Assembly (NCBI RefSeq): GCF_007559005.1
Contig: NZ_CP041763.1
Span: 248,001 to 312,000 of the forward strand
Direction of reading: 5' to 3'
DNA length: 64,000 nucleotides
Source of the DNA: Gordonia zhaorongruii
Lineage (GTDB): Bacteria > Actinomycetota > Actinomycetes > Mycobacteriales > Mycobacteriaceae
A program made the position numbers and the translations under genes. Positions 13,760-44,252 of the stretch are shown one piece after another. Positions within the stretch are counted from its first letter, which is position 1, and every line of letters begins with the position of its first letter. The notes under the pieces are model-generated. The model did no database searches. It saw only the letters and a program-made list of their open reading frames with translations, and had not been told where the DNA came from.

Positions 13760-14168
13760 GGAAGTACCGGCCTTTCTTCAGGTCGTACCAGACTGAACGC
13801 AACGGGCCGATGTTGCGTCGTCGTCGACGTATTATTCCTGGTAACCGTAAATCGTCGCCCCCGGTCAGCGCTCCCAAGGTTTGCCTAACTTCCCAGGTTG
13901 CAACGGCCCCAAGTCTGTCCCGAAGTATGTTACTCGCGAGTAACAATGCGGCCAAGCCGCCCTGCCGGTTCGGTGCCTGGCTTGCGGAGCATGCCCGCGA
14001 TGACTCGCGGCGGCGGATCGGGCCTGATAGATGCAGGCTCACGAGGTGTGCCGCGGAGTGATCGGCTCCGGTGGAGGCAGCCGATCGCATCGTGCCGGGT
14101 GGCTGACGTCACGGACCTGCCGCGAGGTCACGAATCGAGAACAGTTCGGGCGGGCATGGCCGAGTGGG
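13760..14168. other. Gene-free region between etfD and WS/DGAT
   Basis: 409 bp holding the etfD upstream region and the 3' flank of the WS/DGAT gene, which is transcribed toward it. The clearest element is the 18-bp palindrome at 13928-13945. The open frames here lack coding character and run antisense or across both flanks. I see no tRNA or other RNA gene. Confidence 0.6.
13928..13945. promoter_or_regulatory. 18-bp perfect palindrome upstream of etfD
   Basis: TGTTACTCGCGAGTAACA, perfect over all 18 bases, 169 bp upstream of the etfD start. Palindromes of this form are typical TetR-family operators. No regulator gene is adjacent. A fatty-acid-responsive repressor would fit EtfD's role, but that is inference. 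Confidence 0.55.
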
Positions 14169-36248: not shown

Positions 36249-36266
36249 CCATAAGTCGACTTATGG
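36249..36266. promoter_or_regulatory. TetR operator in divergent promoter
   Basis: CCATAAGTCGACTTATGG, a perfect 18-bp palindrome between the divergent tetR (start 36205) and the MpaB-like gene (start 36309). Placement is classic for autoregulated TetR repressors. Confidence 0.75.
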
Positions 36267-42767: not shown

Positions 42768-43424
42768 TCAGAGTGCGTTGAGCGCCACGTCGATCGGTAC
42801 CGAGCCGTCGGTGAAAGCGATGTTCTGGCGGATGGACGCCGGATTGGCCAGTGCCGCTGCGGCGACCTGTGCCACGTTGGCCCGCGCGGTGCCGGCGTTC
42901 TTCTCGGTGCGGATGGCGGCCGGATCGATCGTCCCCGACGGATCGTCGAGGGTCAGCGCACCTGGCATGAGAATGGTCCAGTCCAGCTTGGATTCGCGCA
43001 GAGCGACGTCGGCAGCTGCCTTCGCCTCCGCGTACGGGTAGAAGGCGCTGTCTTCGCTGACACCGTGATCGGGTCCGGCACCGAGATACGAGACGAGCAC
43101 GAACCTGTTCACGCCTGCCTCGGCCGCGGCCTCCATGGCACGGATCGCCGCGTCCCGATCGACGGCGTAGGTGCGGTCGGGGTTTCCGCCGCCGGCACCC
43201 GCGGTGAACACCACGGCGTCAGCGCCCTCGATCGCCTGGCTGATCTCCCCGCGGTCGGCGTTCTCGACATCGAGAACCAGTGGTTCCGCGCCGGAGGCAC
43301 GGACATCGTCGGCGTGCTCCGGGTTACGGATGATCGAGGTGACCGAGTCGCCGCGTTCGTTCAGCAGGGGTGCGAGGAGGAGGGCGATCTTGCCGTGTCC
43401 TCCGATGATCTTGATGTCCGCCAT
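42768..43424 (-). CDS. NAD(P)-binding NmrA/SDR-like protein
   Basis: 218 residues, atypical extended SDR. Nucleotide-binding IIGGHGKIALLLAPLLNERGDSVTSIIRNPEHADDV, then ADAVVFTAGAGGGNPDRTYAVDRDAAIRAMEAAAEAGVNRFVLVSYLGAG, and YPYAEAKAAADVALRESKLDWTILMPGALTLDDPSGTI. Such proteins sense or reduce with NADPH; the substrate is unknown. It is first gene of a probable pair with the LLM oxidoreductase. Confidence 0.85.
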   Translation of the reverse strand: MADIKIIGGHGKIALLLAPLLNERGDSVTSIIRNPEHADDVRASGAEPLVLDVENADRGEISQAIEGADAVVFTAGAGGGNPDRTYAVDRDAAIRAMEAAAEAGVNRFVLVSYLGAGPDHGVSEDSAFYPYAEAKAAADVALRESKLDWTILMPGALTLDDPSGTIDPAAIRTEKNAGTARANVAQVAAAALANPASIRQNIAFTDGSVPIDVALNAL

Positions 43425-44099
43425 GAGGGATACCGTACTGATTACCGCCCATCGCCGCAGAGTCGGGGATTGTTACATCGTTAACCTTTGAAGTTGCTGC
43501 GGAGATCCGTTGAGGCTGGTAGCCAGTTCGTCCCGAAGCGCCGTGGTGTGACCGGCTGGGTCCGGAGCGGGCCGGCGTCGGGGAAACCGTCCTGACTGGC
43601 GCGTCGCGAATCGCTCGGTCGGCCCCGAGGTCCGGAACGATCTGATTGGCGCCGAACGACACTGCGGTGGGGAATGGCCAGAGTCTTCCGATGAGTGTCA
43701 ACCTGCCAGCGAGGTCGAGTGTGTTCGACGTGTTCGACGCTGTCCTTCAGTCGTTTCCGGGCGATCGGGCGATGGACTGGTCGGGCGAGTTCTTCGGGGA
43801 GATTCTGGAAGTTATGTCAACCGGGACTTCGGTCGCTTGCGCAGCGGGTCCGGGTCTGAGGATTTGCCTCTATGCAGGGAGTACGCGGGCATCCTTACTG
43901 GTAGATGCGATTTCGAAGACTCTGGAAATTGTCCTACAAACGTATGACTCAAGCCACAATCGAGACAATATGAGGCACAGATCACATTTACATAACGGTC
44001 TTTTACTTCAGTCGACTGAAGTACTCGCCAGGGTCAAAGTGGACATCGCGTGCAGTTCGCCAAGAGCTGACGTTTCCCGCAAGTGAAAGAAGTAGAAAA
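43425..44099. other. Long, partly AT-rich region upstream of the peptide cluster
   Basis: 675 bp with no convincing gene. The left part has normal GC. From about 43880 to 44100 the sequence is clearly richer in A and T than its surroundings (for example CACATTTACATAACGG). It holds the 20-bp palindrome at 44014-44033. An open frame from 43691 to 44086 (131 codons) has no ribosome site and no family resemblance; it could be a decayed gene. The region presumably carries the promoter of the peptide gene at 44100. Confidence 0.55.
44014..44033. promoter_or_regulatory. 20-bp perfect palindrome upstream of the peptide gene
   Basis: TACTTCAGTCGACTGAAGTA, perfect over 20 bases, 66 bp before the peptide start and inside the AT-rich stretch. 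It looks like the operator of a dimeric regulator. No regulator gene lies in the cluster, so control would come from elsewhere. Confidence 0.65.
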
Positions 44100-44204
44100 A
44101 TGGCTGATGGCCCCGTCGTCCTGCAGATCGACTTCCTGACCCCGATCATCGACGCCCTGGGTGGTGCTTCCAGTGAGGGCAGCAGCGAAGCGCCGGCAAC
44201 GTAG
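44100..44204 (+). CDS. 34-residue peptide gene (candidate exported or modified peptide)
   Basis: A short frame of 34 codons plus stop. A purine-rich site GAAAGAAG (44085-44092) stands 7 bp before the ATG. Third codon positions are almost all G or C, as in real genes here. The peptide has a short acidic start (MADG), an amphipathic hydrophobic core (residues 6-20, VVLQIDFLTPIIDAL), then a Gly/Ser/Glu-rich tail (GGASSEGSSE, residues 21-30). It has no Cys, no signal peptide and a net negative charge. Its stop codon lies in the loop of one hairpin and a second hairpin follows at once. It precedes GNAT, Ag85-fold and ABC-exporter genes. Two models fit: a secreted or antimicrobial-type peptide, or a small envelope peptide like corynebacterial PorA/PorH. 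Both are inference. Confidence 0.6.
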   Translation: MADGPVVLQIDFLTPIIDALGGASSEGSSEAPAT

Positions 44205-44252
44205 AGCCGGACTTCGCTGGGCCGCCTTGCGCTTAACGGTGCGAGGCGGCCC
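44183..44252 (+). terminator. Tandem hairpins after the peptide gene (attenuator/stabiliser)
   Basis: Hairpin 1: CAGCGAAG (44183-44190) pairs with CTTCGCTG (44212-44219), plus CCGGC (44193-44197) with GCCGG (44206-44210); the peptide stop codon is in its loop. Hairpin 2: 44219-44230 pairs with 44241-44252 (12 bp, one G-T), loop 10 nt. There is no T run. The pair would let the short peptide message outnumber the downstream genes. Confidence 0.65.

Follow-up and report, generated by a model that had tools for sequence, protein, structure and literature searches.

The AT-rich stretch at 43851-44099 (+ strand) of the window, i.e., of the whole 64,000-nucleotide stretch of Gordonia zhaorongruii DNA analyzed here, is, judged by comparison with its relatives, a conserved promoter feature of a tiny Gordonia peptide gene family. 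By its sequence the element shared by these promoters is an MtrA-type promoter, a kind already known, and phosphorylated MtrA probably controls the putative peptide/acyltransferase-like/mycoloyltransferase/exporter cluster via a tandem repeat. The eye-catching palindrome singled out by an earlier note on this DNA is thereby replaced by a testable assignment: a peptide family is tied by promoter sequence to the Gordonia MtrA cell-wall regulon.

The AT-rich stretch and the genes that follow it

In 200-bp steps, the lowest GC of the window (about 0.45, against a mean of 0.663 and a standard deviation of 0.037) is reached at about 43900-44100, and the four lowest-GC 200-bp stretches of the 64 kb all fall inside 43801-44150 (0.45-0.50). 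The dip proper, 43851-44099, has a GC content of 0.478 and the remaining intergenic stretch 0.61-0.63. The drop in GC before the peptide gene and the composition minimum in a sliding plot, both put forward in the earlier note, are therefore real. The dip recurs in relatives: in 17 of 17 loci, one per genome (16 Gordonia, the window's included, and one Jongsikchunia, with a second unit of genome G018 excluded), the lowest 150-bp GC of the locus begins 100-250 bases before the peptide start codon, and the last 200 bases before the peptide gene average 0.515 compared with 0.674 elsewhere in these loci. This conservation upholds the earlier description of the stretch as a control region.

The intergenic stretch is bounded upstream by a divergent gene for an NAD(P)H-binding protein (42768-43424, - strand) and is longer in the window than in G. 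malaquae. An open frame at 43691-44086 (+) spans the AT-rich part and includes EFFGEILEVMSTGTS; this is similar to the peptide core DFLGPILETLSTGSA, though not significantly (53% over 15 aa, E 0.63), and the frame may be a decayed second peptide gene.

The cluster lies on the + strand. GAAAGAAG (44085-44092), probably the ribosome-binding stretch, precedes P0004 (44100-44204), which encodes a 34-aa peptide without an evident signal sequence. P0001 (44295-44954) follows; it encodes an acyltransferase-like protein that matches no Pfam or NCBIfam family, has a structure model with a mean pLDDT of 88.0 and is suspected of a GNAT-type fold. Between P0004 and P0001 lies an inverted repeat (44219-44252; 12-nt arms, 92% complementary, 10 nt between them); three relatives (L004, L011 and L017) have inverted repeats in the same gap, and these are possible attenuators giving more peptide than enzyme. 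P0005 (45001-45990, start codon assumed) is a secreted-looking mycoloyltransferase-family esterase (PF00756) whose best match among solved structures is Corynebacterium Cmt1 (E 2.5e-68), followed by PS1 (3.9e-43) and Antigen 85-A (4.1e-30); we take Cmt1 and MytC to be two names of one enzyme. Two ABC exporter subunits, P0002 (45987-47762) and P0003 (47759-49603), each with PF00664 and PF00005, complete the cluster; no regulator gene is found among its members.

Of 151 genomes, 29 (counting the window's own) have a P0001 relative at E <=0.001, and such relatives lead to ten named loci, in nine Gordonia (malaquae, sihwensis, hydrophobica, namibiensis, amicalis, lacunae, paraffinivorans and alkanivorans among them) and in Jongsikchunia kroppenstedtii. 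A peptide profile built from 12 sequences (consensus MAEGPIRLEIDFLGPILExLxTGSAxGSSE) yields 18 matches at E <1e-4, weaker ones being left out, in 17 of 401 family genomes: 16 Gordonia, again counting the window's, and the Jongsikchunia. All 17 encode a P0001 relative (E <1e-59), so that the peptide and P0001 form a conserved unit, to which P0005 and the exporters do not seem to belong: among the ten named loci, where flanks of up to 6 kb on either side were read, a P0005 relative stands beside the peptide in one (L044, 65% identity) and an exporter match in none, while the other 17 loci, with only about 1.5 kb on each side, are too short for a verdict on either. At L061 (G002), L057/L031 (G018) and L044 (Jongsikchunia), two P0001-type genes lie in a row or nearby, each with its own small peptide gene in front, and the second peptide-P0001 unit of L044 adjoins the P0005 relative; the doubling suggests matched peptide-enzyme pairs. 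No description of the peptide family was found in the Gordonia literature covered by the search, outside of which most subscription papers lie.

A tandem repeat of the MtrA type

When the upstream stretches are aligned on the start codon, TAACG appears at about -110 with a second copy 11 bases away: what the peptide promoters have in common is the tandem repeat RTAAC-N6-RTAAC, located 109-130 bases ahead of the start codon. Once the repeat had been noticed, 18 upstream stretches of 250 bp each were scored against the MtrA core known from the literature (two RTAAC at an 11-bp period), not against a motif derived from the stretches themselves. Thirteen of the 18 promoters match at 9 or 10 of 10 core positions (nine at 10/10), every one of them on the coding strand and between -109 and -130, compared with a mean of 0.455 and a maximum of 3 promoters at 9 or more in 200 dinucleotide shuffles. 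Five promoters miss (L053, L054 and L055 at 8/10, L065 and L066 at 7/10), and, with lineages grouped by eye, eight of ten include a promoter scoring 9 or more. Two additional units differ: the first of L061 scores 10/10 and the second of L044 has no box. A motif-free search for gapped 4-mer pairs, with one sequence for each of 11 lineages, ranks TAAC-N7-TAAC, with its shifts, highest (5 of 11 lineages), and no pair exceeds 3 in 40 shuffles. The same search returns a GAAA+GAAG pair, the GAAAGAAG stretch, in 4 of 11 lineages. A second common 6-mer, TGTGAT, is found upstream of the peptide gene in 6 of 11 lineages (L053-L055, L057, L063, L065 and L066, the last two without an MtrA box); it is possibly a promoter element or another regulator's half-site.

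The window's own copy, ATCACATTTACATAAC (43981-43996, +), lies 119 bases ahead of the start codon and agrees with the core at 9 of 10 positions. Taken alone it has a p of 0.025 against shuffles of its own upstream stretch; it is one of three places at 9 or more in the window, and at up to one mismatch the repeat occurs at 74 places genome-wide, this one included, versus 52 for the reversed pattern. This weak copy counts because it is positioned where the relatives have their box. Its ATAAC half falls at -108, the position of the first half in most relatives, so the window's pair may have moved upstream by one turn; the half that comes next downstream, TTACT, is a poor one and overlaps the palindrome. 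Neither a sigma-70 scan nor a hand search after the box reveals a convincing -10 element.

The published MtrA consensus is (A/G)TAACAATttn(A/G)TAACAAT, and the C. glutamicum sites are direct repeats of 8 bp, loosely conserved and separated by a 3-bp linker (PMC3353115, in excerpt); related repeats are described for mycobacteria and Streptomyces (PMC6265350, PMC5650626, PMC13189361, excerpts), and the regulon includes rpf genes (excerpt of PMC6265350). MtrA is encoded once at a clear score in the window's genome, outside the window (C1:2478589-2479245; 382.8 bits against a cut-off of 300). The protein matches solved MtrA, 2gwr, at E 4.5e-127, with a near-identical DNA-binding part; no box of 8 or more lies in the 500 bases before its gene. 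The unlinked regulator implied by the earlier note is thus plausible as MtrA acting via the tandem repeat, not via the palindrome.

Within the genus, rpf genes served as controls for MtrA and ammonium transporter genes for GlnR. The rpf gene whose leader carries a c-di-AMP riboswitch (6 of 6), here called rpfA-type, is preceded by a 10/10 RTAAC box in six of six Gordonia genomes. Among 18 rpf loci, seven score 10, three score 9 and eight score 7 or 8; for most of these eight, the 900 bases searched fall inside an open frame. The strict pattern RTAACRN5RTAACR occurs 42 times in eight whole genomes and its reverse twice. Of these 42, nine belong to peptide genes and eight, one per genome, to rpfA-type genes; the nine reflect selection, because the eight genomes were chosen for a 10/10 peptide promoter, and what is informative in the count is the rarity of the box and the company of neighboring genes. 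Other neighbors were read at 30 of the 42 sites, with four proteins scanned and one of them without a match. One strict site, in five genomes, is divergent from a mycoloyltransferase-family esterase gene (PF00756), which is likely a further MtrA target; other neighbors are a transglycosylase-domain protein (L149) and an ECF sigma factor (L148), and this company fits a cell-wall regulon. The box shared by the five genomes, GTAACGGCACGATAACG, is perfect and identical in G014, G018, G019, G022 and G023 (L163, L159, L156, L162 and L150).

The palindrome and competing explanations

The 20-bp perfect palindrome TACTTCAGTCGACTGAAGTA is present exactly as the earlier note reported, at 44004-44023 (no strand assigned), and is the sole site in the window at up to 3 mismatches. 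It begins 7 bases after the tandem repeat, which would place it in or near the core promoter if the relatives' promoter spacing holds. Its length is unremarkable at the scale of the window and notable within one promoter: spacerless perfect palindromes of at least 20 bp appear in 15 of 60 shuffled 64-kb windows, and shuffling the 675-bp intergenic stretch (43425-44099) yields one in 3 of 3000 cases. Either chance or a local operator may account for the palindrome. The window holds two more perfect palindromes, of 18 bp each: TGTTACTCGCGAGTAACA (13928-13945), which includes GTTAC/GTAAC half-sites, and CCATAAGTCGACTTATGG (36249-36266).

An operator with further targets should leave copies. None is found in the 3.23-Mb genome at up to 3 mismatches, nor a second copy of the 12-base core TTCAGTNNACTGAA with one mismatch allowed; the palindrome is absent from 58 other Gordonia genomes at up to 2 mismatches, and viral contigs hold no exact copy. 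The earlier note's proposal of an operator common to co-regulated genes, and the conservation before related clusters that it envisaged, are contradicted by these searches; a regulon operator is rejected, leaving a single-target operator or chance. A dimeric repressor of the TetR or MarR type that binds the palindrome, over the core promoter, at this promoter and in this species only, alone or with MtrA, would account for perfect symmetry rarely matched in shuffles of so short a promoter and for the position just past the repeat, but is unlikely given the missing copies, even of the core, and a cluster that encodes no regulator. Chance or drifting sequence without function, with the dip alone marking an ordinary promoter, is the probable explanation: a palindrome of this kind arises in a quarter of shuffled windows, and the one here is private to this genome and does not stand out as RNA, the region 43960-44110 folding no better than shuffles (z -0.29); the rarity within its own intergenic stretch speaks against it. 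A chance palindrome and control by MtrA can be true together. An RNA hairpin or terminator is rejected on the same fold, and a scan finds no terminator-like site. As for known RNA elements, the one Rfam match, sub-threshold, lies away from the palindrome at 44177-44251. The palindrome is also unlikely to be coding, because third-position GC in the open frame that would contain it (43646/43691-44086) is 0.70-0.80 up to about 43825 and then falls to 0.40-0.60.

The tandem repeat could instead be read by another OmpR-family regulator, foremost GlnR, in which case the cluster would answer to nitrogen supply. GlnR boxes have the same 11-bp period as the peptide boxes, and in Streptomyces GlnR and MtrA compete at some sites; the M. 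smegmatis GlnR box is t/gTAAC-n6-Gc/aAAC (all from excerpts of PMC10704036). Four upstream stretches also hold GlnR-like places at 9/10 in other positions: those of L054, L055 and L067, and the one in the window (L060, on the minus strand at -28). In the control genomes, a GlnR-type box scoring 9 or 10 of 10 precedes the main amtB gene in six of six cases, while three further ammonium transporters score 7 or 8. Since the amtB boxes reach 8-9 when scored as MtrA boxes, the MtrA score alone fails to part the two regulators; their second half does so. The amtB boxes resemble the peptide boxes in period and first half and differ in the second, which is GAAAC in amtB and RTAAC in the peptide promoters, and the perfect shared peptide boxes score at most 8/10 as GlnR boxes. 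GlnR is rejected at the conserved box, and control of the cluster by GlnR or another such regulator is distinctly unlikely. Recent acquisition of the cluster, which the earlier note had offered as a meaning of the composition shift, would agree with the patchy family (17 of 401 genomes) and with P0005 and the exporters not being found beside the peptide in most relatives read. It is nevertheless highly improbable: the dip is bound to the promoter and kept before the peptide gene in all 17 loci, the cluster genes have a GC content of 0.63-0.69 and their neighbors 0.67, and the divergent neighbor is common to G. malaquae and G038 at 75-76% identity. The dip is, on these grounds, rejected as an import mark.

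Proposed mechanism and comparison with known systems

MtrA remains the preferred regulator. The low-GC stretch would serve as promoter for the peptide gene and, probably, for all of the cluster; there MtrA~P, the phosphorylated form of a response regulator conserved in actinobacteria, would bind, as a tandem dimer, two half-sites one helical turn apart (43981-43996 in the window) and set cluster transcription in step with envelope growth. In C. glutamicum, MtrA activates from a site upstream of -35 and represses from one near -10 (PMC3353115, in excerpt); activation is the likelier sign here, because the box lies more than 100 bases before the start codon. A single transcript would span the cluster, and readthrough beyond the inverted repeat (44219-44252) may be reduced. 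Less firmly, by analogy with PorA and PorH, the ABC pair might export the peptide and P0005 might acylate it. A tentative, rather doubtful proposal goes further: under the control of MtrA, one operon would supply a leaderless peptide of the envelope, its own ABC pair for export and the means of O-mycoloylating it. If true, this would amount to a dedicated route of export and lipidation, and no such route is known for PorA/PorH. The window's gene arrangement, in which a Cmt1-like mycoloyltransferase and two ABC exporters accompany a peptide that lacks a leader, is relevant to the passage of leaderless mycomembrane proteins through the inner membrane, which a 2025 preprint calls unclear (PMC12632848, in excerpt).

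PorA and PorH are without signal sequences and depend on MytC (PMC5310785, PMC12632848, excerpts). The present cluster resembles PorA/PorH and MytC/Cmt1 in combining a very small protein that lacks an evident signal sequence with a Cmt1-type enzyme at hand, and differs in that the peptide gene has those of the enzyme and of two ABC exporters for neighbors. The peptide promoters share with the MtrA boxes of C. glutamicum, mycobacteria and Streptomyces two RTAAC-like half-sites with an 11-bp period. By contrast to those boxes, the target here is a peptide family without a Pfam or NCBIfam match, and the first half of the window's copy is TCAC-type, one position off the core.
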